Shown here piece after piece: positions 42,746-64,000 of a stretch of DNA of 64,000 bases (the stretch's first letter is position 1; each line of letters begins with the position of its first letter). Origin of the DNA: Burkholderiales bacterium (GTDB taxonomy: Bacteria > Pseudomonadota > Gammaproteobacteria > Burkholderiales > SG8-41); the NCBI GenBank assembly GCA_030683105.1, contig JAUXMZ010000043.1:1-64000 (forward strand), written 5' to 3'. The notes beneath the pieces were generated by a model. The model saw nothing but the letters and a program-made list of their open reading frames with translations. It ran no database searches and was not told the origin of the DNA. The position numbers were made by a program, and so were the translations under genes.

Positions 42746-42759
42746 TTGATCTAGGTCAA
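42746..42759 (+). promoter_or_regulatory. FNR/ANR-type box before the thiol-redox run
   Basis: TTGATctagGTCAA matches the FNR/ANR consensus TTGAT-N4-ATCAA at 9 of 10 positions. It lies 54 bases before the first start codon of the run, a position suited to activation. No strong -10 is visible at the ideal spacing. Confidence 0.55.
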
Positions 42760-42813
42760 ACCAAGTGTCCGGGGCGTTTGCATTCGAACTTTTGCGCGAC
42801 TAGTATCCCCTGC

Positions 42814-43200
42814 ATGACTCTGTCCCGGTTCACCAGGCGTATTGTGGCCACCATTACGGGTATGGCATTGTTGCTGTACCTGGCTACGACTGCCGCCCAT
42901 GCTTGCGTTCTGAGCGCCGCAGCCCCCCAAGACAGCGCCATGCCCGAGCCATGCTGCGAAGCCGCCGCCGAGGTCAGGGCCGCTCCCGAACTGAGTTGTT
43001 GCCAAGCCAATTATTCGTCACTGCAGGCAACGCCGGAAACAGTCAAGGTCGCTGCGCTCGCAGCGGTCGAACTGCCGATGGTCGTGGCGCATCTGGAACC
43101 TGCATTTTCCGCCGGATGTGCAGCTGCAGACGTAACCTTCAATACGGCTCACGCCAACTCCCCTCCGCTGCACACCCTCTACTGCCGTCTGCGTAATTAG
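42814..43200 (+). CDS. Small exported Cys-rich protein, first gene of the thiol-redox run
   Basis: The start at 42814 gives 128 residues with a signal peptide (TGMALLLYLATTAAHA). The mature part has Cys pairs (EPCCEAAAEV and ELSCCQANYS) and ends SPPLHTLYCRLRN. The pattern PP-x5-C-x4-end recurs in the protein at 55440. Small leader proteins of this sort precede many copper and silver operons and are poorly characterised; metal binding is inferred from the Cys content. Confidence 0.65.
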   Translation: MTLSRFTRRIVATITGMALLLYLATTAAHACVLSAAAPQDSAMPEPCCEAAAEVRAAPELSCCQANYSSLQATPETVKVAALAAVELPMVVAHLEPAFSAGCAAADVTFNTAHANSPPLHTLYCRLRN

Positions 43201-43412
43201 ATCTCCGTCCTGACGTTGTGCCGGTGGCCATCGCGGCCGCTGTTTGGCACGACACCTCGATGCGGAGGTTTTTGCATTTCAATCTGGTACGGCAATTCGC
43301 AAGCACGCCGACGCGGCCATGAAATGGCCGGCCAACTCCCGCATCTCCGACACAAGAATCTATTGAAGAATTGCCGCCAATTTTGATATTGGCGGCAAGA
43401 AAAGGAAAGAAA

Positions 43413-43958
43413 ATGGAAACGATAAAGGACACGACGCACAAGAAAATGCTTTATACGCTGATTGCCGTTACGGCAATCGTGATACTGCTCGGCATCTATA
43501 TCAGCCAGGAGAACGCCGCACAGCCCAAGCCGGATGCGAATCGGCCGGTTGCGACAGCCAGCGCATCCGCTGCTGTCGGGGCGTTGGCTTCACCCGGACC
43601 ATTTCACGATTTTGGCAAGATATCAATGGCAGCGGGAAATGTTACGCACCGGTTCACGATCGAAAATACCGGAGGATCTGCAATCACCGTCACCAAGCTC
43701 TACACCTCCTGCATGTGCACGACCGCAACGTTGATCACGCTGGCGGGAAAGAAAGGGCCGTTCGGCATGCCCGGACACACGCCAATCCCGAGCATTACCG
43801 AAATCATGGGGCCGGAAGGCAGAGCCCAGGTGGAAATCGTGTTTGATCCCAAGGCCCACGGACCCGCCGGGGTTGGCCGCATAGAGCGGGTAATCACGGT
43901 TGAAAACAACGCGGGCAAGTCACTCGAACTTGGTTTCGTCGCCATGGTAACGCCGTAA
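43413..43958 (+). CDS. DUF1573 membrane-anchored periplasmic protein
   Basis: An N-terminal membrane anchor (about 12-30) is followed by a Ser/Ala linker and a DUF1573 immunoglobulin-like domain (FHDFGKISMAAGNVTHRFTI). It has a CxC pair at C100/C102 (YTSCMCTTA), at the place where many DUF1573 proteins have cysteines. The ATG at 43413 has AAGGAAAG upstream. Function unknown; the linked CcdA-like gene starts 10 bases later. Confidence 0.82.
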   Translation: METIKDTTHKKMLYTLIAVTAIVILLGIYISQENAAQPKPDANRPVATASASAAVGALASPGPFHDFGKISMAAGNVTHRFTIENTGGSAITVTKLYTSCMCTTATLITLAGKKGPFGMPGHTPIPSITEIMGPEGRAQVEIVFDPKAHGPAGVGRIERVITVENNAGKSLELGFVAMVTP

Positions 43959-43968
43959 GCGAGCCCCC

Positions 43969-44751
43969 ATGAATAAAACCCTGGCGGCGTTAATCGGGTT
44001 CGGCGTACTGCTTTTTGGATCCGTGCTTTTCTTCCAATTCGCAAATGTGGGGACGGCGGCGCTCTGGCAGTTGTCTGACGAGGGCAAGTGGCTGCTGCCG
44101 CTGGTCGCCGTCGCGGCCCTCATAGACAGCATCAATCCCTGCGCTTTTTCGATCCTGATACTCACGATTGCATTTCTCTTCAGCCTGGGCAAATTGCGAT
44201 CGAGCATTCTGGCAATCGGGAGTGCGTACATACTCGGCATCTTCCTGGTCTACATGCTTATCGGCCTCGGAATCCTGCAGGTGCTCCACATTTTCGATAC
44301 GCCGCATTTCATGGCACAGGTCGGCGCATATCTTTTAATTTTGCTCGGTCTGATCAATATCACCAACGAGTTCTTCCCGGCATTCCCCGTCAAGTTGAAA
44401 ATCCCGCAAGCCGCACACCACAAGATAGCAACGTTGATGGAAAAAGGATCGCTTCCCTCCGCGTTTCTTCTGGGCGGCCTGGTGGGGATCTGCGAGTTCC
44501 CATGTACCGGAGGGCCATATCTCATGGTGCTGGGATTGCTTCATGATCAGACGACGTTCACGGTCGGCCTCGGCTATCTCGTGCTTTACAACCTGATCTT
44601 TATCCTGCCGCTGGTGATCATCCTGCGCATTTCAGGCGACAAAGCGATCGTGGAGAAGGTGCAGAAATGGAAGGCCCGGGAAACCAGAACAATGCGGTTC
44701 GGGGGCGGCATCGCCATGGTGCTGCTGGGCCTCGTCATCCTCAGTCTGTGA
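43969..44751 (+). CDS. CcdA/DsbD-type membrane thiol transporter, copy 1
   Basis: CcdA-type proteins carry reducing power from cytoplasmic thioredoxin to the periplasm. There are six or seven membrane helices and cysteines in INPCAFSI (C58) and CEFPCTGGP (C175, C179). C58 and one of the latter pair would form the relay. The CEFPCTGGPY block differs from classical CcdA (compare the copy at 46966) and is typical of the branch often linked to DUF1573 and heavy-metal genes. 260 residues. Confidence 0.85.
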   Translation: MNKTLAALIGFGVLLFGSVLFFQFANVGTAALWQLSDEGKWLLPLVAVAALIDSINPCAFSILILTIAFLFSLGKLRSSILAIGSAYILGIFLVYMLIGLGILQVLHIFDTPHFMAQVGAYLLILLGLINITNEFFPAFPVKLKIPQAAHHKIATLMEKGSLPSAFLLGGLVGICEFPCTGGPYLMVLGLLHDQTTFTVGLGYLVLYNLIFILPLVIILRISGDKAIVEKVQKWKARETRTMRFGGGIAMVLLGLVILSL

Positions 44752-44829
44752 TAACGGTGATGATCGCAACACAATATAAAAGCACAGCCCGCACAATCGA
44801 ATCCACGGACAGATACTGGAGCAAACACA

Positions 44830-45405
44830 ATGAGTGACACCGTTGACACAAGCCGCGCCGGTTCGCAGCGGAGCGTATTTCGCCTGGGGAGTTTTTTGCC
44901 TTTGTTGGTGTTCCTTGGACTGGCGGTAATATTCGGCATCGGGCTGACATTGAATCCAAGGAATATCCCGTCGCCGCTCATCGGCAAGCCTGTGCCTGAA
45001 TTCAACCTGCCTCCGGTCAAGGGCCGCACGCTGGGGCTTTCCAGCACCGACCTCAGAGGCGAGGTATCGCTGGTCAATGTGTTTGCATCCTGGTGCACGG
45101 CCTGTCGTGCGGAGCATCCGCTGCTGATGGAACTCAAGGCAAAAGGCGTAGTCCCTATCCATGGGCTCAATTACAAAGACAAGCCGGACGATGCCGAAAA
45201 ATGGCTGGCCGAACTGGGTGACTCCTATACTCGGACAGGCGCAGACATCGATGGCCGGGTCGGGATAGACTGGGGCGTCTACGGTGTGCCGGAAACCTAT
45301 GTCATCGGCCGTGACGGCCGCATTGCCTACAAGCAAATTGGCCAGTTAACACCAGAAATACTGCGGGACAAAATCGCTCCGCTGATAAACGAGTTGCGCA
45401 AATGA
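44830..45405 (+). CDS. TlpA/CcmG-like periplasmic thioredoxin
   Basis: A membrane anchor (about 21-41) is followed by a thioredoxin fold with the redox pair C89-C92 (FASWCTACRAEH) and the cis-proline segment GVPETYVIG. The length and GRVGIDWGVYGVPE are those of DsbE/CcmG proteins, which reduce apocytochrome c thiols. Lying between two CcdA-type genes, it would be the acceptor of their electrons. Confidence 0.87.
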   Translation: MSDTVDTSRAGSQRSVFRLGSFLPLLVFLGLAVIFGIGLTLNPRNIPSPLIGKPVPEFNLPPVKGRTLGLSSTDLRGEVSLVNVFASWCTACRAEHPLLMELKAKGVVPIHGLNYKDKPDDAEKWLAELGDSYTRTGADIDGRVGIDWGVYGVPETYVIGRDGRIAYKQIGQLTPEILRDKIAPLINELRK

Positions 45406-45469
45406 ACCCGGCCCGGATCGCCCGGGATAAAGACGATAGCGCCAGAATGCATTCAAAGGAGAAGCAAAC

Positions 45470-46411
45470 ATGATGGGTACGACGAGATGGCTGGGGATCC
45501 AGGCCGGTTACGCGCAAGCAGCTGTTATGTCGAGAATTTTTATAGTCGCCCTGGCTATATTCCTCCTGCCAGCGCTCGCCGCCGGCCAGTCAAGCCGCAG
45601 CACTCCCATGGTGAACCCCAGACTTGCAAGCCTGCAGATCGAGATCTGGCCGGAATACGACCGCCCGGCAGCGCTCGTGATACTCAAGGGAGAGTTGGCG
45701 GCGGATGTTCCGCTTCCTGCTGCGGTAGCGCTACGCATCGCGGCTGCGACCGGCGGTCCGACTGCGGTAGCGGCCTCGACCGGGCCGGGTGCCGCACTGT
45801 TCAATCTGAAGCACGAACGAAAAAACGCAGACGACTTCATCACGGTAAGCTTCGAAGCCGCGCAGCGTCTGTTCCACGTCGAGTTTTACGAACCGCTCGC
45901 AACCGCCAAGCCCGAGCGCAGCTATACCTATGTCTGGCCAGGCGACTTTGCAGTGGACCGGCTGCATGTCATTCTCCAGGAACCCGCGGGGGCGCTGTTC
46001 GTAACGGCCCAACCGGGCCTCAATGCCACCACCACAGGCCAAAACGGATTGCGTTACCGGTCCGCGGAACTGGGCGCCCAGAAGGCGGGAACACCACTGC
46101 CCGTCAAGATCAGCTACACCAAGTCGGATCCGCGAACCTCGGAGCAAATTCTTCAGCCCAAAACCCCGGACGTATCGCCTTCGCCGGCCACGAGCCCCAC
46201 TGGCCAATCTCCCCGCTGGTGGGCCCTGGTTTTCGCCATCGCCGCGGCATTGGTCATAGCTGCCTGGGCGGCTTATCTGTGGTGGCGGATTCGCGGGAAG
46301 GCGTCCGTTCCCCAGCCGGGCGGCGCTGGTTTCTGCCCCAAGTGCGGCACCCGGACGGGTTCAGGCGACCGCTTCTGCTCGAAATGCGGCGCGCCACTGG
46401 GAACCGGTTGA
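45470..46411 (+). CDS. Membrane protein with periplasmic domain and C-terminal zinc ribbon
   Basis: The start at 45470 has AAAGGAG. The N-terminal hydrophobic segment (about 20-38) acts as signal or anchor. A beta-rich periplasmic part (about 45-230) follows, then a membrane helix (about 248-270, WWALVFAIAAALVIAAWAAY) and a zinc ribbon FCPKCG-x9-FCSKCG at the end, on the cytoplasmic side by topology. No family name is secure. Its place in the thiol-redox run suggests a sensing or assembly role. Confidence 0.7.
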   Translation: MMGTTRWLGIQAGYAQAAVMSRIFIVALAIFLLPALAAGQSSRSTPMVNPRLASLQIEIWPEYDRPAALVILKGELAADVPLPAAVALRIAAATGGPTAVAASTGPGAALFNLKHERKNADDFITVSFEAAQRLFHVEFYEPLATAKPERSYTYVWPGDFAVDRLHVILQEPAGALFVTAQPGLNATTTGQNGLRYRSAELGAQKAGTPLPVKISYTKSDPRTSEQILQPKTPDVSPSPATSPTGQSPRWWALVFAIAAALVIAAWAAYLWWRIRGKASVPQPGGAGFCPKCGTRTGSGDRFCSKCGAPLGTG

Positions 46412-46432
46412 CGACTTCACGAAAGCGCGCCC

Positions 46433-46879
46433 ATGACCATCATCCTGATCACAACCCTCTCGATACTCGCCATAACGGGGCTGGCATGGCTTGCAAATAA
46501 AATCCTGCCCTTTCCCATTTGCCCTATCTGCGTCGGCATCGCTGCCACATGGATCTGGATGCTGGCAGGGCGGCTTGCGGGTCTTGAGTTCGATAACGCT
46601 ATGCTCGCGATACTGCTGGGCGGATCGGTGGTGGGAATGGGCGATCAGCTTGAAAAGCATCTGCCTGCGGGCCGTTTGCCGCTGCTGTGGAAAACGCTGT
46701 TTATGCCGATCGGTTTCATCGCCGCCTACGGGCTCGCCACAGCGCATTGGACTGTGATGGCGATGGCTGTCGCCGCGCTTCTTCTTCTGACATCGGTATT
46801 TTTTATGCCGCGCCCTCAGTCTGAAAAAAATAACTCCGTTGTCGAAAAGCTTAAAGAAGACATGAAGAAATGCTGCTGA
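46433..46879 (+). CDS. Hypothetical membrane protein with CPIC motif
   Basis: The protein has 148 residues, four predicted helices and the sequence LPFPICPICVGIAATW near residue 26, a Cys pair facing the start of helix 2. The tail ends KKCC. A Cys pair of this kind in a membrane protein next to CcdA and DsbC-like genes suggests a thiol-exchange or metal role. Function is otherwise unknown. Confidence 0.6.
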   Translation: MTIILITTLSILAITGLAWLANKILPFPICPICVGIAATWIWMLAGRLAGLEFDNAMLAILLGGSVVGMGDQLEKHLPAGRLPLLWKTLFMPIGFIAAYGLATAHWTVMAMAVAALLLLTSVFFMPRPQSEKNNSVVEKLKEDMKKCC

Positions 46880-46965
46880 GGATCCCGTCTTCATCCCATC
46901 GCCGGTGTCTCCGATTGACGGATAACGCACCGGCATGGATTTGAAAAAGCCCGGGGCGTGATGCC

Positions 46966-47706
46966 ATGACCGATATATCCAGTTTCGGCCTGCTGACCGC
47001 CTTCGCCGCGGGAATTGTCTCCTTCCTCTCGCCCTGCGTGCTGCCGCTGGTGCCCGCTTATGTTTCCTACATAGCCGGCCACTCGCTGGAGCACTCCCGC
47101 CAGAGGGAAAATTTCTCCCAAAAACTTTCCGCGCTCGCCTTAAGCATATGCTTCGTGCTGGGATTCTCGACGATATTCATCACGCTTGGCGCGAGCGCCA
47201 CCATGCTTGGGCAACTGCTCTTGAGCTACCGCTATGAAACTAATATCGTCGGAGGCGCAATCGTCGTCGTATTCGGCCTCTTTACGACCGGGTTCCTGAA
47301 AATTCCCTGGTTCCAGCACGATTTTCGTCTCCACCCCCATGTCGGGAGTGGACGGCCGCTGGCCGCCTACGTGCTGGGTCTCGCGTTTGGATTCGGCTGG
47401 ACCCCATGCATCGGACCGGTGCTGGGCGCGATACTCACCTTCAGCGCCGTTTCTTCGAACACCGGGAGCGGTATCGCCTTGCTTTCGACGTACGCGCTTG
47501 GGCTCGGTCTGCCGTTTTTGGCGGCGGCGTTATTTACCGGCGGACTTGCGCAGCGTCTCAAGAAGCTGCGTCGCGCAGGACGGGCGCTCCAGATCGGCGC
47601 GGGTGTCATCATGATCGTCATGGGCATTGCCATCATGACCGGACAACTGTCAGCGTTTTCCTACTGGCTGATCGAGGCTTTCCCATTCCTGGCAACGATC
47701 GGATAG
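46966..47706 (+). CDS. ccdA: Cytochrome c biogenesis protein CcdA, copy 2
   Basis: This is a classical six-helix CcdA with SFLSPCVLPLVPAYVS (C24) and GFGWTPCIGPVLGA (C148), the two cysteines that carry electrons across the inner membrane. 246 residues. It is clearly different from the CcdA-like protein at 43969, so the run holds two transporters of the family. Confidence 0.9.
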   Translation: MTDISSFGLLTAFAAGIVSFLSPCVLPLVPAYVSYIAGHSLEHSRQRENFSQKLSALALSICFVLGFSTIFITLGASATMLGQLLLSYRYETNIVGGAIVVVFGLFTTGFLKIPWFQHDFRLHPHVGSGRPLAAYVLGLAFGFGWTPCIGPVLGAILTFSAVSSNTGSGIALLSTYALGLGLPFLAAALFTGGLAQRLKKLRRAGRALQIGAGVIMIVMGIAIMTGQLSAFSYWLIEAFPFLATIG

Positions 47707-47768
47707 GTTTCACCGGGTCATTGTGTGTTTTTCAACCACTGTATTCGGCACTAAATGGAGGACGACGC

Positions 47769-48494
47769 ATGAATCTATCGAAACTGATTTCCGTGGCCTT
47801 CGGCTTGATACTCACGGTAACTGCCATTGCCGGGCAAGCCGATGAACAGCAGATCCGCAAAGTGTTTCAGGCCAAGATTCCGGGAACCAAGGTGCTCAGC
47901 ATACTGAAACTGCCATATACCGGACTTTACGAAGTCTCCATACAAGGCCCGAATGGCCCGGCGGTCTACTACAGCGACGCCTCGGCGCAAGTTATCTTCA
48001 TTGGCAACCTGATCGAAACCCGAACCGAACGAAACCTGACGGACGAACGATTGCGCAAGCTGTCGGCGATCGACTGGAAGGGGCTGCCGTTCCAGTCGGC
48101 AATCACCATCCGGCGCGGCAATGAACGGCGCCAGATCGCAATATTCTCTGACCCAAACTGCCCCTTCTGCCAGCAGTTCGAAAAGGATCTTGATGCCATT
48201 GATGACATCACTATTCACATATTCCCGTACCCGGTCATCAAGCCGGAATCGGTCCGCCAGACCAAATCCGTCTGGTGCTCGAAGGATCGCGCGAAGGCGT
48301 GGAATGACCTTATGCTGAAACGAGTGGAGCCGACCGCGCCAACCGATTGTGAAAATCCGATAGACGAACTGCTCGCGCTTGGCCGGCGGCTCGGAGCAAC
48401 CTCCACGCCGACCTGGTTTTTGCCGAACGGCGAAAAACATCTAGGCGCGCAGCCGATGAATAAGGTTATTCCGATGCTGGACGGAACATCCTGA
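47769..48494 (+). CDS. DsbC/DsbG-like periplasmic disulfide isomerase
   Basis: After a signal peptide (ending TAIAG) comes a dimerisation domain (about 25-85) and a thioredoxin domain with the redox pair C131-C134 (SDPNCPFCQQFEKD). The cis-proline segment is TSTPTWFLPNG. CPFC differs from the CGYC of E. coli DsbC. The ATG at 47769 has GGAGG. It ends the run, followed by a strong hairpin. Confidence 0.88.
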   Translation: MNLSKLISVAFGLILTVTAIAGQADEQQIRKVFQAKIPGTKVLSILKLPYTGLYEVSIQGPNGPAVYYSDASAQVIFIGNLIETRTERNLTDERLRKLSAIDWKGLPFQSAITIRRGNERRQIAIFSDPNCPFCQQFEKDLDAIDDITIHIFPYPVIKPESVRQTKSVWCSKDRAKAWNDLMLKRVEPTAPTDCENPIDELLALGRRLGATSTPTWFLPNGEKHLGAQPMNKVIPMLDGTS

Positions 48495-48527: not shown

Positions 48528-48561
48528 CGGGATGCAGCCCGGACCAGGCTGCATCCCGTTT
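48528..48561. terminator. Hairpin between the thiol-redox run and the cus operon
   Basis: CGGGATGCAGCC and GGCTGCATCCCG form a perfect 12-bp stem with a 7-base loop, followed by TTT. It sits between two convergent gene sets and may terminate both. Confidence 0.7.
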
Positions 48562-48577
48562 CCGCCTGTCTTTCCCC

Positions 48578-48712
48578 TTAATTCGGCTTTGCGGTATCAC
48601 GCTCGTACGGTTGCGACGACTGGGTCATATCCTTGGCACCCATCATGCCCATACTGCTTTCGGGACCGCCCATTACCAGCATCACGACCATCACTATCAT
48701 CATCACAGCCAT
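48578..48712 (-). CDS. Tiny Met-rich membrane protein at the end of the cus operon
   Basis: The frame of 44 codons starts MAVMMIVMVVMLVMGGPESS, then SMGMMGAKDMT, ending TAKPN. One membrane helix is studded with methionines, followed by a short polar tail with MGMM. The site CGGAGAAAG seven bases before the ATG is a good Shine-Dalgarno. The Met clusters suggest binding of Cu(I)/Ag(I), as in CusF or CusA. It is below usual annotation limits. Confidence 0.55.
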   Translation of the reverse strand: MAVMMIVMVVMLVMGGPESSMGMMGAKDMTQSSQPYERDTAKPN

Positions 48713-48746
48713 TTCTTTCTCCGGTTAAAAAAACAAGATTAAACAA

Positions 48747-48853: not shown

Positions 48854-49192
48854 TCATCGCAGCGGCCGGAATTCGTCGGGTGTAGCCTCGCCTTTCGTGC
48901 GGACCAGAAACAACTTTTCGATCGGCATGACGGCGACTACGCCGTCTCCCGGCAGCCCGGTATGGGCGGCCTCCATGATCGCGGCGGATATGGCTTCCGC
49001 TTCTTCCCGCCGGGTAAACACTTCGAGTCTGACCTCTTCGACCATCCAGTTGCGCGCGAAAAAATCCTGGTAATCGCCGTATCCCTTGACCTTCGAAATA
49101 TTGATACGCTCGACGCCGATCTCCCGCAGTTTTTTCTCGACCTCCTCCAGTTTGTCGACGCGGATGATGGCGATGATAAGTTTGAAGTCCAT
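48854..49192 (-). CDS. PII-like signalling protein of metal-efflux operons (PII-NG type)
   Basis: It has a ferredoxin-like PII fold: MDFKLIIAIIRVDKLEEVEK, the T-loop region GYGDYQDFFARNWMVEE and the C-terminal DGVVAVMPIEKLFLVRTKGE. The T-loop lacks the GlnB uridylylation tyrosine context. PII-like genes of this sort are known beside RND metal exporters. The ATG at 49192 has GGAGG; the cusA stop lies 14 bases upstream. The ligand is unknown. Confidence 0.82.
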   Translation of the reverse strand: MDFKLIIAIIRVDKLEEVEKKLREIGVERINISKVKGYGDYQDFFARNWMVEEVRLEVFTRREEAEAISAAIMEAAHTGLPGDGVVAVMPIEKLFLVRTKGEATPDEFRPLR

Positions 49193-49206: not shown

Positions 49207-52200
49207 TTATTGCGTGACCTTCGTTTGCATGTCCTTGCCGCGGCTGATCGTGAACTCCTTGACCAGCGCGTAAATCGCGGGAATCACGATCAGCGTGAGG
49301 ATGGTCGAGGAGATCATCCCGCCTACCATGGGTGCTGCGATGCGGCGCATCACTTCCGAGCCGGCGCCACTGCCCCACATGATGGGCAGCAGGCCGGCCA
49401 TGATCGCCACCACCGTCATCATCTTCGGCCGCACCCGTTCCACCGCGCCATGCATGACTGATTCGTAAAGATCGGCCGCGGTAACGGTGCGGCCTGCCGC
49501 GTGCTGTCTGGCAGCCATCGCCCTGAACGCCTGGTCCAGATACAGCAGCATCACCACCCCGGTTTCAGCCGCCACCCCGGCGAGCGCTATGAATCCCACC
49601 ACAACCGCAACGCTGACGTTGTAGTCGAGCAGGTACATCAGCCAGACTCCGCCCACCAGCGAAAACGGCACCGACAGCATCACGATCAGCGTTTCGGTGA
49701 GCCGCCGGAAGTTTAAATAAAGCAGCACGAATATCAGCAGCAGGGTCACCGGCACCACGATTTTCATCCGCTCCTTGGCCCGCTCCAGGTACTCGAACTG
49801 GCCGCTCCAGGTGATGTAGTAACCCGGCTGGAATTTCACCTGCTCGCGCACCGCTTTCTGGGCGTCGGCAACGTAGCCGCCGATGTCGCGGCCGCGCATG
49901 TCCACGAAGATGTACGCGGACAGCAGGGCGTTCTCGGTCCGGATACCCGGCGACCCCCGGGTAATCGCCACTTTGGCGACCTGTCCCAGCGGTATCATCG
50001 CGCCGTTCATCACGGGCACCAGCACCTGGGTGGCAATCGCCTGCGGGTCGCTGCGCAGTTCACGCGGGTAGCGCACGCTGACGCCAAACCGCTCGCGGCC
50101 TTCGACGGTGGTCGTCACCGTTTCACCGCCAAGCGCGGTGCCGATCACTTCCTGCAGATCGCCTATCGCCAGCCCGTAGCGCGCGAGCGCCAGCCGGTCG
50201 GGCTCGATATCGAGAAAGTAGCCGCCGGTGATACGCTCGGCGTAGGCGCTGGTCGTGCCCGGGACGGTTTTGACCACGGCCTCGATTTGTTTCGCCAGCT
50301 GCTCCATTTCGGCAAGGTCCTTGCCGAATACCTTGATGCCGATAGGCGTGCGGATGCCGGTGGAAAGCATGTCGATGCGCGCCTTGATCGGCATGGTCCA
50401 GGCGTTGCTGATACCCGGAATCTGCACGGCCTGGTCCAGTTCGGCAATCAGCTTGTCCATCGTCATGCCCGGCCGCCATTCGCTTTCCGGTTTGAGGTTG
50501 ATCACCGTTTCGAACATTTCGATCGGAGCCGGATCGGTCGCGCTGTTGGCCCGGCCCGCCTTGCCGAACGCCGACGCCACTTCAGGGAAGCCCTTGATGA
50601 TCCGGTTCTGGACCTGCATCAGTTCGGCCGCCTTGGTGACCGACATTCCCGGCAGACCCGACGGCATATACAGTAAAGAGCCCTCGTTTAACGTTGGCAT
50701 GAACTCCGTGCCCAGTTTCATCGCCGGAAACACCGATACCGCCATGGCGATGACGGCAGCGATGATAGTGAGCTTTTTCCAGCGCATCACCAGGGCGATG
50801 ACCGGCCGGTAACTCCAGATGAGGAAACGGTTCACCGGGTTTTTCGCCTCAGGCATGATCCGCCCGCGCACGAACAGCAGCATCAGCACCGGAACCAGCG
50901 TGATCGAGAGCAACGCAGCCCCCGCCATGGCAAAGGTCTTGGTGTAGGCAAGCGGGGTGAACAGCCTGCCCTCCTGGGCTTCCAGCGTGAACACCGGCAG
51001 GAAGGAGACGGTGATGATGAGCAGGCTGAAGAACAGCGCGGGACCGACTTCGCGGCACGCCGTGATGATCGCTTCCAGCCGCGACGCCCCCGGCTGCAGC
51101 CGTTCCAGGTGCTTGTGGGCGTTTTCGATCATCACGATCGCGGCATCGATCATCGCGCCGATGGCAATGGCGATGCCGCCGAGGCTCATGATGTTGGAAT
51201 TGAGTCCTAGCAAGCGCATCGCGATGAAGGCGATCAGCACGCCTATTGGCAGCATGATGATCGCGACCAGGGCACTGCGCACATGCAGCAGAAACACGAT
51301 GCACACCAGCGCCACGATCAGGCTCTCCTCGATCAGCGTCACCTTCAGGTTGTTGATGGCGCGATGGATCAGTTCGGAGCGGTCATAGACCGCTTCGATA
51401 CTGACGCCTGGCGGCAGGCCGGGCCCGATTTCCGCAATCTTCGCTTTGATATTGTCGATGACTTCAAGCGCATTCTGGCCGTAGCGCGCCATGGCGATGC
51501 CGGCTACGACTTCGCCTTCGCCATTGAGTTCGGTAATGCCGCGGCGCTCGTCCGGACCAAGTTCCACGCGCGCCACGTCCCGCAACAGCACCGGTATGCC
51601 GCCTTCGGCCTTCACCACCAACTGCTCCAGGTCGGAGACGCTGCGCAGGTAACCGCGTCCGCGCACCATGTACTCGGTCTCCGCCATCTCGACCACGCGC
51701 CCGCCGACGTCGGTATTGCTCATGCGTATCGTTTGCGAGATTTTCGACAGCGGAATGCCGTAGGCCTGCAGCTTGCGCGGATTGACGGTCACCTGGTATT
51801 GCTGGACGAAACCGCCGATGCTCGCCACTTCGGCCACACCCTGCGCCTTGGTGAGCTGATAGCGGATGAACCAGTCCTGCAGGGTGCGCAACTCCGCCAG
51901 TGTGCGATTGGCGCCGAGCACCACGTACTGATAGACCCAGCCCACGCCGGTGGCATCCGGCCCCAGCGCCGGCGTAATGCCGCGCGGCAGGCGCCCGGAA
52001 GCGAAATTAAGGTATTCGAGCACCCGCGAGCGCGCCCAGTAGATATCGGTGCCGTCCTCGAAAATGACATAGACGAAGGACGCGCCAAAGAACGAGAAGC
52101 CGCGCACCACTTTCGAGCGTGGCACACTCAGCATGGCGGTGGTCAGCGGGTAGGTAACCTGGTCTTCCACCACCTGCGGCGCCTGGCCCGGATACTCGGT

Positions 52201-53968: not shown

Positions 53969-54002
53969 GAGTATCTCCAGAGGTGCAGCATGTTTATTCG
54001 TT

Positions 54003-55439: not shown

Positions 55440-55817
55440 TCAAATCAGGAAGCTGCAGAAACGGATGGCTTTGGGTGGATCCCGTACCGGGTCGACGAGG
55501 CTGCGCATTGCCACCAAGGCAAGCGTGTTGTCCGGCGATGGAAGCGGGAGAAGAATCGAAGCGGTCGGCGGCGGCGGCACGGTCAGCGGGGTGGAGGCGG
55601 ACAGGATGTCGCTGTCCGTGCATTGCATCACGCACAGTTTGCTGGCGCTCTCCGCAGGCATCTCGCAATCGCTGTCCATCTGCCCGGTCATTGCGCTGGC
55701 CGCTGCCATCCCCGGCATGAAGCAGGGCTGGGTGGCATATGCCGCCTGTACAAACAGCAACGTAACCACCAGCACGTGGCAGAGTGTGCGCAAAAAACGA
55801 TTGGAATTATTGATCAC
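55440..55817 (-). CDS. Small exported Cys/Met-rich protein, first gene of the cus operon
   Basis: The start is a GTG at 55817 that overlaps the stop of an upstream leader frame as GTGA. The signal peptide (MINNSNRFLRTLCHVLVVTL, onward to YA) is good. The mature part, PCFMPGMAAASAMTGQMDSD, followed by CEMP and CVMQC, is rich in Cys and Met. It ends DPPKAIRFCSFLI, with the same PP-x5-C-x4-end spacing as the protein at 42814. Copper binding is inferred from composition; 125 residues. Confidence 0.65.
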   Translation of the reverse strand: MINNSNRFLRTLCHVLVVTLLFVQAAYATQPCFMPGMAAASAMTGQMDSDCEMPAESASKLCVMQCTDSDILSASTPLTVPPPPTASILLPLPSPDNTLALVAMRSLVDPVRDPPKAIRFCSFLI

Positions 55818-55894
55818 GCTGTTAACCAATGCGAAGCCGGGGCCCAAGGAATGAATGCCTGCACATAGAGCGGTTGATCGTCATAAAAGTTCAT
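55814..55894 (-). CDS. Leader peptide frame of the cus operon, 26 codons
   Basis: It reads MNFYDDQPLYVQAFIPWAPA and ends SHWLTA. Its ATG is about four bases after the predicted transcription start and may be read leaderless. Its stop overlaps the GTG start of the next gene. This geometry fits translational coupling or attenuation. It is too short to judge by composition. Confidence 0.45.
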   Translation of the reverse strand: MNFYDDQPLYVQAFIPWAPASHWLTA

Positions 55895-55905: not shown

Positions 55906-55946
55906 ATTATCCACGAAGTCGTTAGTCTACATTTGATTTAAATCAA
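55906..55946 (-). promoter_or_regulatory. FNR/ANR box and -10 of the cus operon
   Basis: TTGATttaaATCAA (55933-55946) is a perfect FNR/ANR palindrome. On the minus strand GATAAT (55906-55911) lies 31 bases from box centre to -10 centre, the spacing of class II activated promoters. Confidence 0.75.
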
Positions 55947-58541: not shown

Positions 58542-58898
58542 GTGGTTGTTTATAATAGATTATTATTTGCTATTGCTATTGCTGTTGCGGCTGTGATTCC
58601 GTCGGCGCTGGCGCAACAGGCTGCGCGCCCCAATCCATCGGATCCTGCGGCAACCGTGCCCCCTGCCAACTATGATTCGCCTTTCGCCGGTTACGTCCCG
58701 CACCAGGATCAGGAAGTCGCTTCGTGGCGCGGCATCAACGACGAGGCGGCACGCATCGGCGGTCACATCGGGATACTGCGTCAATCCGGCATGCATGGCA
58801 GCAATCCCCCCGCTGGACCCGCTGGCCCATCCACCACGCCATCACCCGCCAGACCCGCTATGCCAGCCATGCCCGGCCACGGCGCCGGCATGAAGTAG
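58542..58898 (+). CDS. Hypothetical exported protein before the TolC-family gene
   Basis: The GTG at 58542 has GAGAGG. A signal peptide ends ALAQQ. The mature protein has PPANYDSPFAGYVPHQDQEV and a low-complexity Pro/Ala/Met/His tail (PAMPAMPGHGAGMK). Tail motifs of this kind bind Cu in some proteins. The next gene starts 13 bases later. Confidence 0.6.
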   Translation: MVVYNRLLFAIAIAVAAVIPSALAQQAARPNPSDPAATVPPANYDSPFAGYVPHQDQEVASWRGINDEAARIGGHIGILRQSGMHGSNPPAGPAGPSTTPSPARPAMPAMPGHGAGMK

Positions 58899-58911: not shown

Positions 58912-60342
58912 ATGAAAATAATTCCCAACCTGAAAACAATCCGGCCCAGAACGCTGGCACTGGTATTGAGCGCCGTCTTTCTTGGCGGTTGTGCGACGTT
59001 GTCCGAGGACGGCGGCTTCGGCAGCGTCCAAACCATGACCAAAGAGCGGCTCGACAAGGACATCAAATGGGTAAAGACCGACCGCGATGCCGAGCAGGTG
59101 CAGGCCACGGTAAAAAAGCTGCTGGCCACGCCGCTCACCGTGGATGCGGCCGTGCAGATTGCATTGCTTAACAATCGCGGCCTGCAGGCAACTTACGCCG
59201 AACTGGGTATCGCCGAAGCCGATCTGGTGCAGGCCGGCCGCTTGCGCAACCCGGGCTTCTCGTTCGCGCGCTCGACTCGCGGCGACGAAGTGGAAATCGA
59301 GCGCACTTTCCTGTTCGACGTGCTCGGACTCATCACCATGCCGATACGCACCGAACTCGAACAGCGCCGCTTCGATCTAGTCAAGATGCGCGTCACCGCT
59401 GAAACGCTGCAGGTGGCTGCAGATGCACGACGGGCATATTTCAGCGCAGTCGCGGCGCAGGAGGGCGTGAAGTACATGGAGCAGGTCAGGCTGGCTGCGG
59501 AAGCCAGCGCCGAACTGGCCCGCCGCATGGCTGCTGCAGGCAATTTCAGCAAACTCAGCCAGGCGCGGGAACAAGTGTTCTACGCCGAGGTAACCGCCCA
59601 GCTTGCCAGAGTCAAACAGAATGCCCTCTCGGAACGCGAACGTTTGACCCGGTTGATGGGATTGTGGGGCGAGGATATCCGTTTTACGCTGCCCGAGCGC
59701 CTGCCCGACCTGCCCAAAATGGCTCGCGAGATGTCTGACCTCGAAACCCAGGCCCTGAAACAGCGCCTCGACGTTCAGGGTGCGATGAAAGACGCCGAGA
59801 ACATCGCGGCATCCCTCGGGCTCACCAAGGCCACGGGCTACCTCAACGTGCTCGAAGTCGGCTACACGCGCACCAGCGAGACTGGACAGCCGTTCAAGCG
59901 CGGTTATGAAATCGAACTGCGGCTGCCGATCTTCGACTGGGGTGGCGCCCGCGTGGCGCGCGCCGAGCATACCTACATGCAGGCGGTGAACCATGCCGCT
60001 GATATTGCCGTAAAAGCCCGCTCCGAAGTGCGCGAAGCCTATAACGCCTATCGCACCGCGTTCGACCTCGCAAAACACTATCGCGATGAAATCGTCCCGC
60101 TCAGAAAGCGCATTTCCGAGGAAAACCTGCTGCGCTACAACGGCATGCTGATCGGCGTGTTCGAACTGCTGGCCGATGCGCGCCAGCAGATCGCGAGCGT
60201 CAACAGCTATATCGAAACGCTGCGCGATTACTGGCTGGCAGAATCCAATTTGACGCTGGCGCTGACCGGCAAATCGCCCGGCGCCATGAAAATGGGTGGC
60301 GGCATGCAGGCCGCCGCTGAAACAGCCGGCGCTGGCCACTGA
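58912..60342 (+). CDS. TolC-family outer-membrane lipoprotein
   Basis: The lipobox FLGGC (C27) predicts lipidation. A TolC-type helical-barrel pattern follows, with VQIALLNNRGLQATYAELGI and YEIELRLPIFDWGGARVARA. It is a second channel besides cusC and has no RND pump gene at its side. The C-terminus MKMGGGMQAAAETAGAGH is Met/Gly-rich. 476 residues. Partnering with the oxidase downstream is suggested by order only. Confidence 0.87.
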   Translation: MKIIPNLKTIRPRTLALVLSAVFLGGCATLSEDGGFGSVQTMTKERLDKDIKWVKTDRDAEQVQATVKKLLATPLTVDAAVQIALLNNRGLQATYAELGIAEADLVQAGRLRNPGFSFARSTRGDEVEIERTFLFDVLGLITMPIRTELEQRRFDLVKMRVTAETLQVAADARRAYFSAVAAQEGVKYMEQVRLAAEASAELARRMAAAGNFSKLSQAREQVFYAEVTAQLARVKQNALSERERLTRLMGLWGEDIRFTLPERLPDLPKMAREMSDLETQALKQRLDVQGAMKDAENIAASLGLTKATGYLNVLEVGYTRTSETGQPFKRGYEIELRLPIFDWGGARVARAEHTYMQAVNHAADIAVKARSEVREAYNAYRTAFDLAKHYRDEIVPLRKRISEENLLRYNGMLIGVFELLADARQQIASVNSYIETLRDYWLAESNLTLALTGKSPGAMKMGGGMQAAAETAGAGH

Positions 60343-60361: not shown

Positions 60362-61753
60362 ATGACTACACGACGTAATTTTCTTCGGACCGCTGGGGGC
60401 GCACTGCTGGGCGCGGCGACTGTCAGCAAGGTTGCGCAAGCCAGCGTGCCGGAAGCACCGATCCAGACCACGCCCGACACCCAGCCACCCCTCTCACCGC
60501 CCAACGGCCGTCCCTACCAGCCGGTGGTGACGTTGAACGGCTGGACGCTGCCCTGGCGCATGAACAACGGCTGGAAGGAATTTCACCTGATCGCCGAACC
60601 GGTGCGCCGGCAGATGGCGCCGGGCATGACCGCGCACTTATGGGGGTACAACGGGCAGTCGCCCGGCCCCACGCTTGAATGCGTCGAAGGCGACAAGGTG
60701 CGCATTTTCGTCACCAACAAGCTGCCCGAGCACACCACCATACACTGGCACGGCATACTGCTGCCCTCGGGCATGGACGGCGTCGGCGGGCTGTCGCAAC
60801 CGCAGATCCCCGTGGGCAAGACCTTCGTCTACGAATTCGAGATGAAGAAATCCGGCACTTTCATGTACCACCCGCACGCCGACGAAATGGTGCAGATGGC
60901 CATGGGCATGATGGGGTTCCTCGTGGTACATCCGAAGAATCCGAACTTCATGCGCGTTGACCGCGATTTCGTGTTCCTGATCAACGCTTATGACATCGAT
61001 CCGGGCAGCTTTACGCCCAAGATCGCCACCATGTCCGATTTCAATCTGTGGTCGTGGAACAGCCGGGTATTTCCCGGAATCTCCCCGCTGGTGGTGCGCC
61101 AAGGCGATCGCGTGCGCGTGCGCATGGGCAATCTGACCATGACCAACCACCCGATCCACATGCACGGTTACGACTTTGCCGTGACCTGCACCGATGGCGG
61201 CTGGGTGCCGAAGAGCGCGCAGTGGCCCGAGGTCACGATCGACATTCCGGTGGGCGCGATGCGCGCTTTCGAGTTCGACGCGATCTATCCGGGAGATTGG
61301 GCGTTCCACTGCCACAAATCTCACCACACGATGAACGCGATGGGCCATAACGTGCCGACCATGATCGGCGTCGACCATCGCGGCGTGGCGCAGAAAATCA
61401 TCAATCTCGTGCCCGACTACATGGTCATGGGCGAGCGCGGCATGGCCGACATGGCCGAGATGGAAATGCCGCTGCCCGACAACACGCTGCCGATGATGAC
61501 CGGCACCGGCCCTTTCGGCCCGATCGAGATGGGCGGCATGTTCTCGGTGGTCAAGGTGCGCGAGGGGCTGGCGCGCAACGACTACAAGGATCCGGGCTGG
61601 TACAAGAATCCGCCGGGCACCGTGGCGTACGAGTGGCAAGGCGCATTGCCGGTTGCAGAGCGCTCCGCCGCCGCGTCACGACGGACAGCCGGGTCTGCGG
61701 CCCCGGAACGCGAACTGCGCGCGCGAAAACCATCAGGTCAAGCCGGACATTAA
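60362..61753 (+). CDS. Tat-exported multicopper oxidase
   Basis: A twin-arginine signal (TTRRNFLRTAGG) leads to the copper sites HWHG (H128, H130), YHPHADEM (H170, H172), HPIHMHG (H263, H266, H268) and HCHKSHHTMNAM (H316, C317, H318, H322, M327). All ligands of the type 1, 2 and 3 sites are present. With 463 residues it is shorter than three-domain CopA/CueO. The likely role is oxidation of Cu(I) to Cu(II). The start at 60362 has GGGAG. Confidence 0.9.
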   Translation: MTTRRNFLRTAGGALLGAATVSKVAQASVPEAPIQTTPDTQPPLSPPNGRPYQPVVTLNGWTLPWRMNNGWKEFHLIAEPVRRQMAPGMTAHLWGYNGQSPGPTLECVEGDKVRIFVTNKLPEHTTIHWHGILLPSGMDGVGGLSQPQIPVGKTFVYEFEMKKSGTFMYHPHADEMVQMAMGMMGFLVVHPKNPNFMRVDRDFVFLINAYDIDPGSFTPKIATMSDFNLWSWNSRVFPGISPLVVRQGDRVRVRMGNLTMTNHPIHMHGYDFAVTCTDGGWVPKSAQWPEVTIDIPVGAMRAFEFDAIYPGDWAFHCHKSHHTMNAMGHNVPTMIGVDHRGVAQKIINLVPDYMVMGERGMADMAEMEMPLPDNTLPMMTGTGPFGPIEMGGMFSVVKVREGLARNDYKDPGWYKNPPGTVAYEWQGALPVAERSAAASRRTAGSAAPERELRARKPSGQAGH

Positions 61754-61789: not shown

Positions 61790-62281
61790 ATGAAGCAGAT
61801 GTTTAAAACAGTATTTTTTGCCACCTTTCTTGCCTCTGGCACAGCGGGCGCCCATGGCGACACCCATAAAACAGAAAAGAAGCCCATGGTGGCATTCGAA
61901 GAGAAGCCTTTTGGCAAGCCGGGTGAGAACAGTAAAGTTACGCGCACGATTCAGGTCGACATGAGCGACACGATGCACTTCAACCCTGAACATATCCGCC
62001 TCAAACCTGGCGATACGGTAAAATTCATCGCCAGAAACAAGGGCAGGATCATGCACGAAATGGTGCTCGGCACCATGAAGGAACTCAAGGAGCACCATGA
62101 GCTCATGAAAAAGTTTCCCAACATGGAACACGACGAACCTTACATGGCCCATGTGCCGCCCGGAAAAAGCGAAGAACTCGTGTGGCAATTCACCAAGCCC
62201 GGCGAGTTCTTCTTTGCCTGCCTGATTCCCGGTCACCTGGAAGCGGGGATGATCGGCAAAATCACCGTCGGGAAACGCTGA
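61790..62281 (+). CDS. Periplasmic cupredoxin
   Basis: A signal peptide ends in TAGAH, followed by an azurin/plastocyanin-like domain. The C-terminal copper loop is C-x4-H-x4-M (FACLIPGHLEAGM), and an upstream His is in GRIMHEMVL. The ATG at 61790 has AAGGAG. It could carry electrons from, or copper to, the oxidase encoded before it. Confidence 0.88.
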   Translation: MKQMFKTVFFATFLASGTAGAHGDTHKTEKKPMVAFEEKPFGKPGENSKVTRTIQVDMSDTMHFNPEHIRLKPGDTVKFIARNKGRIMHEMVLGTMKELKEHHELMKKFPNMEHDEPYMAHVPPGKSEELVWQFTKPGEFFFACLIPGHLEAGMIGKITVGKR

Positions 62282-62344
62282 AATACAATTTCTGAAGCAA
62301 AACGCCTGAAACCAACCCCTAGTACTTTTATTAAAAGGAATATC

Positions 62345-62635
62345 ATGAAAAAAATCACCGCGCTTATCCTTGCAGTCTTTCTTTCAGGTGCTGCGCTCGC
62401 GCAGGCGGCGGAAACATTGAGCGATGGAGAAGTCCGCAAAATCGACAAGGATGCCGCCAAACTCACCATCAAGCATGGCCCCATCCGCAATCTCGACATG
62501 CCGGGCATGACCATGGTTTTTCGCGTCAAAGACAAGGCGATGCTCGATCAGGTCAAGGCGGGCGAGAAGATCAAATTTCAGGCCGAGAACATCAACGGCG
62601 CCCTGACCGTAACTCAGATGGAACCGGCAAAGTAG
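62345..62635 (+). CDS. CusF-like periplasmic copper chaperone
   Basis: The ligand positions correspond to H44, M55 and M57 in KHGPIRNLDMPGMTMVF. The Trp that stacks on Cu(I) in E. coli CusF is replaced by M52, which would change the site to His-Met3. The signal peptide ends ALAQA. 96 residues. The CusF domain fused to CusB keeps the Trp. Confidence 0.88.
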   Translation: MKKITALILAVFLSGAALAQAAETLSDGEVRKIDKDAAKLTIKHGPIRNLDMPGMTMVFRVKDKAMLDQVKAGEKIKFQAENINGALTVTQMEPAK

Positions 62636-62720
62636 GATCCGTGTACAAGCAGGCTTCCGTCATCAGCGCAAATCCTGTGCTGATGCGGAAACCTGGATTT
62701 TGGGAAACCGACCTACGACG

Positions 62721-63983
62721 ATGATGGCTATGAAACGCCTCCGCTCGTGTTTATTGCTTGCGCTTGCCATGACTGTTGCGGCTATCGCGATCACGCCGTC
62801 CACCGGCCGGGCCGGGCAGCCGCTAAACAACGCGCGTCCTGGAAGCGCCGACGCCCAGCTGAAAGCCGTTCTGGAAAAAATCGCCCAAACACAACTGGAT
62901 GCGGCGCTCGATGGGGCCAATCAACTCACCAGCAGCTATCCCACGTTCCGCCTTGGACACCTCGTGCGCGGTGATCTGCTCCTGGCACGCGGCAGGCCGA
63001 TCGCGGAATTCGGCAACACCGGGCATGTTGCCCGTGAGCGCCTCGATGAACTGCGGGCAGAGGTCTCCGTCAGGGTGCGTGCTTATAGTGACCATCCTCC
63101 CCAGGGTCTTGTCCCGCGTTATCTGCTGCAATTTGCGCCTGCGCAACAGCACGCTGTCGTGGTCGACGCCAGCCGCGCGCGCGTTTATGTCTATGAGAAT
63201 TCGAATGGCACGCCGCGTCTGGTGGAGGACTATTACACCACTCTGGGCAAACGCGGCATCGAAAAGGAGCGCGAGGGCGACCAAAAAACCCCTATCGGAG
63301 TCTACGAAATAACCTCCAAGATTCCCGGCAGCAAGTTGCCCGACCTGTACGGCTGGGGGGCATTCCCGATCAATTATCCAAACGCATGGGACAGAATGCG
63401 CGGGAAAACAGGTTACGGTATCTGGCTCCATGGCGTGCCTTCGGACACTTACGCGCGCGCGCCTGCCGCGAGCGACGGCTGTATCGCGCTTGCGAACCCG
63501 GACATCGAGGAACTGAGCAGGCGCGTGCAGGTGGGCACCACGCCGGTGATCATCGCGGATCGCGTCGAGTGGATAGCGCCTGACGCCTCGCGCACTGAAC
63601 GCGATTTGTTCATGCGACAACTTGAAACGTGGCGCACGGACTGGGAGAGCCTCGACACCAATCGATACCTTGCGCACTATTCGCGTGATTTCCGTTCTGG
63701 CAGCATGGATATCGCCGCCTGGCGCGGGCACAAGCAGCGAGTCAACACGGCGAAAACCCGGATTAAAGTTACCCTGGCGAATGTGAGCGTGTTCCGCAAC
63801 CCGGGGAAGCAAGGCCTGATCGCGGTCACGTTCGATCAGGATTATCGCTCGAACAATCTCACCCAGCAGACGCGCAAGCGTCAGTACTGGATCGAGGAGG
63901 ACGGACGCTGGAAGATCGCCTATGAGGCGCCGACCCAGGGCGCCAAGCTCGTCCTGCCCGAATCGTTCCCGGGAAGGTCATGA
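62721..63983 (+). CDS. L,D-transpeptidase (YkuD) with C-terminal NTF2-like domain
   Basis: The catalytic motif HGVPSDTYARAPAASDGCIA lies at about 239-258. An N-terminal exported helical region and a C-terminal domain (about 310-415, LETWRTDWESLDTNRYLAHY) of the NTF2/SnoaL type frame it. Such enzymes cross-link peptidoglycan or attach lipoproteins. The ATG at 62721 is one of three close candidates (62721, 62724, 62730). Confidence 0.85.
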   Translation: MMAMKRLRSCLLLALAMTVAAIAITPSTGRAGQPLNNARPGSADAQLKAVLEKIAQTQLDAALDGANQLTSSYPTFRLGHLVRGDLLLARGRPIAEFGNTGHVARERLDELRAEVSVRVRAYSDHPPQGLVPRYLLQFAPAQQHAVVVDASRARVYVYENSNGTPRLVEDYYTTLGKRGIEKEREGDQKTPIGVYEITSKIPGSKLPDLYGWGAFPINYPNAWDRMRGKTGYGIWLHGVPSDTYARAPAASDGCIALANPDIEELSRRVQVGTTPVIIADRVEWIAPDASRTERDLFMRQLETWRTDWESLDTNRYLAHYSRDFRSGSMDIAAWRGHKQRVNTAKTRIKVTLANVSVFRNPGKQGLIAVTFDQDYRSNNLTQQTRKRQYWIEEDGRWKIAYEAPTQGAKLVLPESFPGRS

Positions 63984-64000
63984 ATCGGCGCCCGTTTCTC
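63980..64000 (+). CDS. Start of an unidentified gene (partial)
   Basis: An ATG overlaps the transpeptidase stop as ATGA and reads MNRRPFL to the edge of the window, with GGGAAGG upstream. The overlap supports a translationally coupled next gene. Nothing more can be said. Confidence 0.4.

Follow-up and report, generated by a model that had tools for sequence, protein, structure and literature searches.

The 64,000-nucleotide (nt) stretch analysed here, hereafter the window, comprises bases 1-64000 of contig 15 (124,230 bases) in the 4.12-Mb draft genome of a Burkholderiales bacterium. From position 42746 onwards it carries genes for thiol-disulfide exchange and copper handling which we read, with a probability of roughly 0.7, as a low-oxygen copper-detoxification island with a trans-membrane thiol relay dedicated to copper that it shares with Patescibacteria through gene transfer. 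A thiol run lies on the plus strand (42814-48494) and a Cus run, CusCBA-PII, on the minus strand (55847-48854). Comparison of gene order across genomes shows that three genes of the former, DUF1573, CcdA1 and CPIC, form a conserved cassette which travels with copper exporters, its partners being P1B ATPases of the copper family in Patescibacteria and CusCBA, ATPases of the same kind or oxidase/CopI/CusF genes in the proteobacteria studied here; the Cus operons are preceded by FNR-type boxes whose spacing to the promoter is conserved.

Gene content of the two opposed runs

The thiol run is arranged as CysP, DUF1573, CcdA1, DsbE/CcmG, a zinc-ribbon protein, CPIC, CcdA2 and DsbC, with intergenic gaps of 10 to 86 nt from DUF1573 through to DsbC and a gap of 212 nt between CysP and DUF1573. 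The Cus run comprises a small Cys/Met-rich protein, CusC, CusB with a CusF domain, CusA and a PII-type protein.

42814..43200, plus strand: CysP, small exported Cys-rich protein (HYC_CC_PP 20.7 bits, below the cut-off of 28)
43371..43398, no strand: perfect 10-bp dyad TTGCCGCCAA-8-TTGGCGGCAA, directly 5' of the DUF1573 gene
43413..43958, plus strand: DUF1573 protein, likely membrane-anchored, with CxC (PF07610 43.2 bits, cut-off 26.1)
43969..44751, plus strand: CcdA1, divergent CcdA/DsbD-type membrane protein of 260 amino acids (aa) (family matches below cut-off)
44830..45405, plus strand: DsbE/CcmG-family periplasmic thioredoxin (TIGR00385 166.4 bits, cut-off 123.15)
45470..46411, plus strand: exported or membrane protein with a zinc ribbon at its C-terminus
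46433..46879, plus strand: CPIC, five predicted membrane helices, ICPxC and a CC tail (no Pfam match)
46966..47706, plus strand: CcdA2, canonical CcdA (DsbD_TM), 246 aa (PF02683 66.8 bits, cut-off 27.1)
47769..48494, plus strand: DsbC-type disulfide isomerase (PF10411 and thioredoxin domain)
48854..49192, minus strand: PII-family protein (PII-NG type by position), closing the Cus run (profile and position)
49207..52350, minus strand: CusA-type heavy-metal resistance-nodulation-division (RND) pump (TIGR00914 1232.9 bits, cut-off 701.45)
52352..53974, minus strand: CusB adaptor with a CusF domain at its C-terminus (profile match)
54003..55307, minus strand: CusC/TolC-type outer-membrane channel (OEP)
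55440..55847, minus strand: small exported Cys/Met-rich protein heading the Cus run (relatives in the same place in L059, L063 and L064, 23-34% identity)

A sequence-only reading of this DNA had proposed a thiol relay, CusCBA and a further run of oxidase, cupredoxin and CusF genes. Family profile searches find all of this gene content, with two corrections: the protein which it had called TlpA-like belongs to the DsbE/CcmG family (TIGR00385), and the last gene of the CusCBA run is of PII type. This is ordinary, such PII-NG neighbours of metal RND pumps being already known (PMC7726332). CusA is a full-length RND permease above the CusA/CzcA family cut-off; its specificity for copper or silver is putative, the context being a CusF domain on CusB and CusF, CopI and oxidase genes nearby. 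Relatives of CysP head the Cus operon in two related genomes, G024 (locus L055, 32% identity) and G005 (L057, 27%). The dyad at 43371-43398, with its 8-nt loop, is a possible operator or leader hairpin. The small open reading frame (ORF) at 48532-48786 has no family and was not counted as a gene; a 35-residue stretch of it matches beside CusA in G001 (46%, E 7e-5). PADLOC gave no match for three proteins, and an Rfam scan of 42600-64000 gave none.

The cassette and its copper partners in Patescibacteria

A degenerate DNA pattern for the CPIC motif, scanned over 84,980 species genomes, recovered 35 loci, of which 30 had Patescibacteria-type titles, one was titled only as a bacterium, three were betaproteobacterial and one was due to chance; in this last, L041 (Neobacillus), no window protein was matched and it was rejected as a carrier. 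The first 31 were surveyed as stretches of 8 kb (two were shorter), genes past the edge being missed. DUF1573, CcdA1 and CPIC were found in the same order and on the same strand in 24 of the 31 stretches, and CcdA1-CPIC in five more; also found were CNHG (25 stretches), a P1B ATPase (18), a member of the CsoR family (11) and a thioredoxin-like gene (10), and the genes sought were co-directional in all stretches except L038.

Matches to the ATPase at E<=1e-60 were found in 29/31 genomes when these were searched in full, mostly once per genome. In 22 of 30 genomes the ATPase and CcdA1 were no more than 10 kb apart, where random placement would give 1.0 and never gave more than 8 in 200,000 simulations (genome sizes rounded to 0.1 Mb; G509, with no CcdA1 match, left out of the 31), and the median distance where both were on one contig was 1.8 kb. 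The other eight genomes had no ATPase at the threshold (two), an ATPase 22 kb away (one) or the two genes on different contigs (five); G491 was scored as a miss despite a weaker ATPase match (E 2.7e-55) on its stretch.

All four ATPases tested (L065, L053, L058 and L036) scored above the cut-off of the copper model TIGR01511 and above the cadmium model. Among the 16 ATPases in the Patescibacteria stretches, the membrane motif was CPC in eight, CPH in six and neither by the pattern used in two, with NX6YNX4P in 15; these motifs bear on copper specificity. Five of the 11 CsoR-family regulators (L020, L025, L026, L037 and L053) carry the C-H-C set, presumably the copper-binding fingerprint of CsoR repressors, the rest having C-H-H; that of L029 had RicR as its best match, under cut-off. 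On this evidence the copper role of the Patescibacteria ATPases is well supported, that of the C-H-H regulators less so.

From gene order, there seem to be two layouts of the cassette in Patescibacteria. One has a C-H-C CsoR gene, with or without a CPC ATPase, 5' of the cassette (L020, L025, L026, L037 and L053), and L048 has its regulator likewise upstream but of the C-H-H kind; the other has a C-H-H regulator together with a CPH-type or unassigned ATPase 3' of the cassette (L022, L024, L029 and L033).

Linkage in proteobacterial relatives

The 99 relatives of the window's genome are called proteobacterial here ("beta" in the tree) by kinship and by the betaproteobacterial loci L032, L040 and L049. 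CusA at 75% identity or above was found in 14/99 (two partial or split) and CcdA1 at 66% or above in 5/99 (G005, G013, G024, G034 and G035); at E<=1e-10, CcdA1 was found in nine of 100 genomes including its own, six of these at 66% identity or above. Close CusA and close CcdA1 occur together in three of the 14 (G005, G013 and G024), and on one contig only in G024. There, a single-strand run of 12 genes reads CysP-CusC-CusB-CusA-PII-DUF1573-CcdA1-X-zinc ribbon-DsbE-CNHG-CcdA2, the PII gene joining CusA to DUF1573 (L055). In G013 the order is ATPase-PII-DUF1573-CcdA1-X-zinc ribbon-DsbE-CNHG-CcdA2, with CusCBA on a separate contig. G005 splits the set between two contigs, CusCBA-PII-CusF-CcdA2 being on the first and DUF1573-CcdA1-X-zinc ribbon-DsbE, accompanied by ATPase and CusF-like genes, on the second. 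An ATPase lies near the thiol run in G034 and G035, with G035 truncated at the contig edge. Protein X (~166 aa, with a GETWCITKHLL stretch and CC near its end) stands 3' of CcdA1 in five relatives (for example L055 9270-9767 and L058 7366-7863), has no Pfam match above cut-off and has no counterpart in the window.

The three motif-found loci, all from betaproteobacterial metagenome-assembled genomes (MAGs), have DUF1573-CcdA1-CPIC in order. L032 has oxidase-CopI-CusF-CusF-DsbE-CcdA2 upstream and an ATPase 2.9 kb off; L040 has DsbE-CcdA2 upstream and an ATPase 3.4 kb from CcdA1; and in L049, CcdA2 lies downstream, followed by TolC2-oxidase-CopI-CusF. Altogether, copper genes were present within the examined stretch at nine of nine proteobacterial thiol-run loci, the window included. 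The P-type ATPase of G001 (L063) was rejected as a copper ATPase, the copper signatures being missing.

The association of copper export with thiol genes, as the sequence-only reading had it, is borne out by the co-directional run of G024, by these nine loci and by the ATPase linkage in Patescibacteria. Synteny over its whole 21 kb is not conserved, none being seen beyond G024, with 11 of the 14 relatives that have a close CusA lacking a close CcdA1. Its proviso, that the two runs might occur apart in most relatives, describes the Cus run, which is often found without the thiol run; in the loci examined, the thiol run was never seen without copper genes close by.

It could be argued that the cassette is a chance passenger, given that islands in draft genomes gather metal and redox genes and adjacency may then arise without function. 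The loss of whole-block synteny in most relatives would suit this, as would the differing gene order among G024, G013, G034 and the window and the fact that the genomes are drafts or MAGs. We regard it as highly unlikely, however, since the linkage is found in two distant groups, with differing sets of copper genes, and is also present in L040, whose MAG is a single chromosome record of 3.64 Mb.

FNR-type boxes

42746..42759, plus strand: FNR-type box TTGATCTAGGTCAA, one mismatch to TTGATNNNNATCAA, with TAGTAT (-10-like) 41 nt downstream
55933..55946, no strand: FNR-type box TTGATTTAAATCAA, exact, with GATAAT 21 nt downstream on the minus strand

Both FNR/ANR-type boxes claimed from the sequence alone are present, and a further site with one mismatch lies at 55874. 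The 21-nt spacing of the 55933 box is what we take to be the class II distance. As a count, the window boxes by themselves make a weak case (four, where shuffled sequences averaged 1.33 and 7/100 of them reached four); they are convincing because of footprints in relatives. The Cus operon is preceded by an exact box in the window, G024, G013 and G001 and by a one-mismatch box in G005, giving five of the six genomes examined. A -10-like hexamer stands 41 nt 3' of the window box at 42746 and of the Cus operon boxes of G024, G005, G013 (a second, one-mismatch box) and G001. As these hexamers match four of the six TATAAT positions (five in G013), and the scan of offsets 15-60 gave further candidates in G005, G013 and G001, the 41-nt spacing is suggestive rather than exact.

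The genome has 25 exact boxes, against none for the reversed pattern, and encodes a CRP/FNR-type protein (L066) with CSTCSLHELC (CxxCxxxxxC) and a further Cys, a pattern which in our view is like that of Escherichia coli FNR. The low-oxygen control put forward by the sequence-only reading thereby gains support, at the level of sequence, from the conserved boxes and the FNR-type protein. Seven of the 25 exact boxes are on contig 15 (55933-121864), a density which suggests a wider region of low-oxygen genes; one of them, at contig position 85419, lies inside the CcmB gene and may not be a promoter site. No box with up to one mismatch heads the third run in the window scan. No CueR-like site was found in the window at up to three mismatches, and the single CopR-like site with one mismatch (12505) is outside the island.

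Protein features of the proposed relay

Cysteines were counted in sequences of at least 140 aa (at least 200 for CcdA1), namely 31/35 of CPIC, 30/33 of DUF1573 and 34/38 of CcdA1. Invariant are C58, C175 and C179 of CcdA1 (34/34) and the CxC of DUF1573, C100 and C102 (30/30). CPIC has C30 and C33 in 31/31, C147 in 30 and C148 in 31, and its terminus is exactly CC in 29 of 31. CcdA2, which scores above the PF02683 cut-off and carries two membrane cysteines, has C24 and C148 in 9/9. The CxC of DUF1573 is presumed redox-active, which fits the listing of DUF1573 among selenoprotein families with a UGC motif (PMC9312934). The SfLAP, ArsG and DsbD matches of the window CcdA1 are all under cut-off; a profile-profile comparison of CcdA1 with CcdA2 (hhalign) gave E 1.2e-5 and a probability of 81.

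The CPIC alignment comprises 31/35 sequences (L021 and L031 being short, L053 cut and L036 left out). The structure model of CPIC is a confident one, with five membrane helices and a C-terminal helix at a mean predicted local distance difference test score of 88.6; it found no meaningful match in the PDB, the rows at Z 5-7 looking like generic helical bundles. Mean K+R is 2.0 in loop 1-2, 2.8 in loop 3-4 and 5.9 in the tail, with 0 to 0.7 elsewhere, and because these charged residues place both loops and the tail there, ICPxC and the CC tail are both predicted to be on the cytoplasmic face. The DsbC of the window has a CPFC motif and is nearest to Dsb-type structures.

Such features could instead mean that CPIC, CcdA1 and DUF1573 pass Cu(I) itself, by way of CPxC, CC, the Cys trio and CxC, to a P1B ATPase or CusCBA, with DsbE and DsbC as proteobacterial add-ons. 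The motifs are indeed rich in paired cysteines, both CPIC pairs are predicted to be cytoplasmic, the cassette is linked to ATPases, and P1B ATPases take Cu(I) on the cytoplasmic side. We nonetheless find this unlikely, as CcdA1 is by the hhalign comparison a profile relative of the CcdA/DsbD carriers of thiol electrons and thioredoxin-like genes follow in 10 of the 31 stretches.

Quite unlikely, too, is that the thiol run serves as a module for cytochrome c maturation or for the assembly of a cuproenzyme (oxidase, nitrite reductase), in which CcdA-DsbE would reduce apo-protein cysteines before heme or copper is inserted and the copper genes would be only neighbours. CNHG, which has an invariant CC...C in the relatives and whose model used 20/27 sequences, bears on this: it has a domain with CcmH as its only match at Z of at least 5 (Z 5.3, 78/82 residues, root-mean-square deviation 3.3; Foldseek E 2.0), a match resting on one chain, and it is suggestive of a partner for DsbE. 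A genome search found no CNHG in the window's own genome, however, and although DsbE scores above the cut-off of the DsbE/CcmG family, a ccm cluster elsewhere on the contig has its own CcmG-type protein, which makes DsbE in the run a second copy, as well as CcmH; profile searches of the thiol run found no CcmF or CcmH partner genes. PMC9145763 describes TlpA as the reductant of Sco and of subunit II's CuA site, L032, L046, L049, L055 and the window all have a gene of multicopper-oxidase type, and an ORF in L055 (G024) resembles a c-type cytochrome by eye; yet the nearest oxidases (window, L032 and L049) adjoin CopI and/or CusF, and the recurrent neighbours in Patescibacteria (families in at least three stretches) are ATPases and the CsoR family, an oxidase-type gene being found only in L046.

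Probable transfer between Patescibacteria and proteobacteria

The window CcdA1 is 79% identical to that of G013 and 74% identical to that of a Parcubacteria MAG (L042), whilst in an even sample of 398 genomes across the window's phylum only its own had a match at E<=1e-20. In a midpoint-rooted tree of 34/38 CcdA1 sequences with several weak forks, the window clade (five rows) and L032/L040/L049 (three rows) are each well supported, and both nest in a large clade which is otherwise from Patescibacteria. The tree label needs two changes, and a single origin is present in 8% of bootstrap trees. The cassette was therefore likely, by this tree, moved into proteobacteria by horizontal transfer, once or twice, with Patescibacteria as the most probable donor. 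A fuller version, which we hold tentatively and at somewhat less than even odds, is that DUF1573-CcdA1-CPIC(-Trx-CNHG) would be a copper-homeostasis cassette of Patescibacteria that moves reducing power or Cu(I) out of the cytoplasm, through the membrane, to copper sites, was transferred from these tiny-genome bacteria to larger proteobacteria, and was fused there into a low-oxygen (FNR) CusCBA operon.

Several observations weigh against the island as we read it. The absence of close CcdA1 from 11 of 14 relatives means that copper export does not need CcdA1. In the window two genes part CPIC from CcdA1, and CPIC was not found in the five relatives which have the run; the 99 relatives gave no real CPIC relative, only that of the own genome and a marginal, stop-containing match in G016 (E 9.6e-4), and the 398 genomes drawn from the phylum gave the own genome only, with none in plasmids. 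Six of the 11 CsoR-family regulators (L022, L024, L029, L033, L038 and L048) are C-H-H, with an uncertain metal. The Cus operon of G006 has no box with up to two mismatches in 280 bp upstream, and none was found at that threshold immediately 5' of the thiol runs located away from Cus in G005, G013, G034 and G035. Among the CcdA1 members of the alignment (22 sequences), DsbD_TM (PF02683) is matched at E<=0.001 in 5/22 and SfLAP in 14/22. The donor and direction of transfer depend on a midpoint-rooted tree with weak forks and on sampling by the CPIC motif, which leaves out phyla that have CcdA1 and lack CPIC.

The third run and the borders of the island

58542..58898, plus strand: small exported protein (a relative lies 5' of TolC2-MCO-CopI, where MCO is multicopper oxidase, in L049)
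58912..60342, plus strand: TolC2, TolC-type outer-membrane protein (OEP)
60362..61753, plus strand: multicopper oxidase (profile match)
61790..62281, plus strand: CopI-type cupredoxin (scores under the CopI cut-offs)
62345..62635, plus strand: CusF-type copper-binding protein (profile match)

The third run, a small protein, TolC2, multicopper oxidase, CopI and CusF on the plus strand, is present as the sequence-only reading had it (multicopper oxidase, cupredoxin and CusF-like genes). The proposed extent of 42746-64000 needs amending: the S-adenosylmethionine (SAM) methyltransferase and PRK09272-family genes between the runs (56169-57968) were not seen to belong to the island, and the island continues past 64000 on the same contig, where it adds genes of CusF-like and TM9 type and a copper-family P1B ATPase at ~71-73.5 kb (TIGR01511 588.6 bits, cut-off 397). 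The last gene of the window (62721-63983) encodes an L,D-transpeptidase, and aldehyde dehydrogenase, cardiolipin-synthase-type and acyl-CoA-ligase genes form the left border (38222-42655). TM9, a small membrane protein with no Pfam match, lies near the cassette at nine loci in Patescibacteria, proteobacteria and the own contig (for example L065 4604-5107 and L037 6843-7355).

The ccm cluster of contig 15 (~84.9-91.5 kb; L069 8948-15518) comprises CcmB, CcmC-type, CcmE, CcmF, CcmG-type, CcmH and CcmI-type genes, CcmF and CcmH being at ~87-90 kb, and has an ethylbenzene-dehydrogenase-type gene on its 3' side (L069 16564-17868).

Comparison with known systems

The closest parallel in function is Scs, found as ScsABCD in Salmonella, Proteus and Caulobacter, in which the membrane thiol reductase ScsB keeps the thioredoxin-fold ScsC reduced for copper tolerance. 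The scsABCD genes are reportedly under CpxR control. ScsB-ScsC is akin to the DsbD-DsbC pair, and Cu(I) is bound by ScsC (PMC8900818). ScsB has three domains, including periplasmic alpha and gamma domains, whereas CcdA1 (260 aa) and CcdA2 (246 aa) consist of the membrane domain only, and the island is set apart from Scs on this ground. It differs further in having two short CcdA-type carriers together with DUF1573, CPIC and a zinc-ribbon protein, in its linkage to CusCBA and P1B ATPases and in its FNR boxes. On this analogy, the best reading is of a relay functionally like Scs and built from other parts.

With CusCFBA the island shares homologues of CusA, CusB, CusC and CusF, but it has a CusB-CusF fusion, a PII gene at the operon end and an FNR-type box, and in G024 the Cus operon runs into the thiol genes; no CusRS was found among the genes scanned. 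The DsbE/CcmG and CcdA families, and the weakly CcmH-like fold of CNHG, recall the CcmG-CcmH-CcdA branch of cytochrome maturation, from which the run is set apart by its tie to copper export and by the separate ccm cluster. Many of the Patescibacteria loci are like CsoR-CopA operons in that genes for a CsoR-family protein and for a copper-family ATPase run in the same direction as the cassette. A csoR-cueA divergon has reportedly been found, and we know of no CsoR-CopA operon that includes DUF1573-CcdA1-CPIC-CNHG. A narrow, open-licence literature search, which is a weak test for Patescibacteria, found no published description of the DUF1573 cassette with CcdA or copper. The earlier statement that no named system has this whole set stands within that search; it had omitted Scs, a named copper-thiol system.

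Proposed function and significance

Copper is more toxic without oxygen, with Cu+ aggregating Cys- and His-containing proteins (PMC9040851); Cus is the envelope copper exporter of enterics under anaerobiosis (PMC8966772); and thiol:disulfide oxidoreductases are named in a review as periplasmic copper targets (PMC7558416, which cites work on DsbC under copper stress). It is because copper hits anoxic cells, Cus exports it and thiol oxidoreductases are among its targets that a copper-dedicated relay is our best reading. FNR would raise both runs at low oxygen, and electrons would pass from cytoplasmic thioredoxin to CPIC (ICPxC and the CC tail), from there to the CcdA proteins and on to the periplasmic partners, the CxC of DUF1573, DsbE and DsbC. 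Periplasmic Cu(I)-binding thiols would thus be kept reduced, allowing Cu(I) to be held and passed to the exporters, and DsbC would mend disulfides scrambled by copper.

Scs is the main known example of copper protection by a thiol relay, and the island would represent an independent set of parts for it, one that occurs in numerous Patescibacteria lineages and in a few proteobacteria. CPIC, CNHG and the divergent CcdA1 are uncharacterised families which now have a testable role. If our reading is true, a trait of direct ecological use would have passed between Patescibacteria and ordinary bacteria, and the cassette may help to explain how reduced cells with tiny genomes handle copper.

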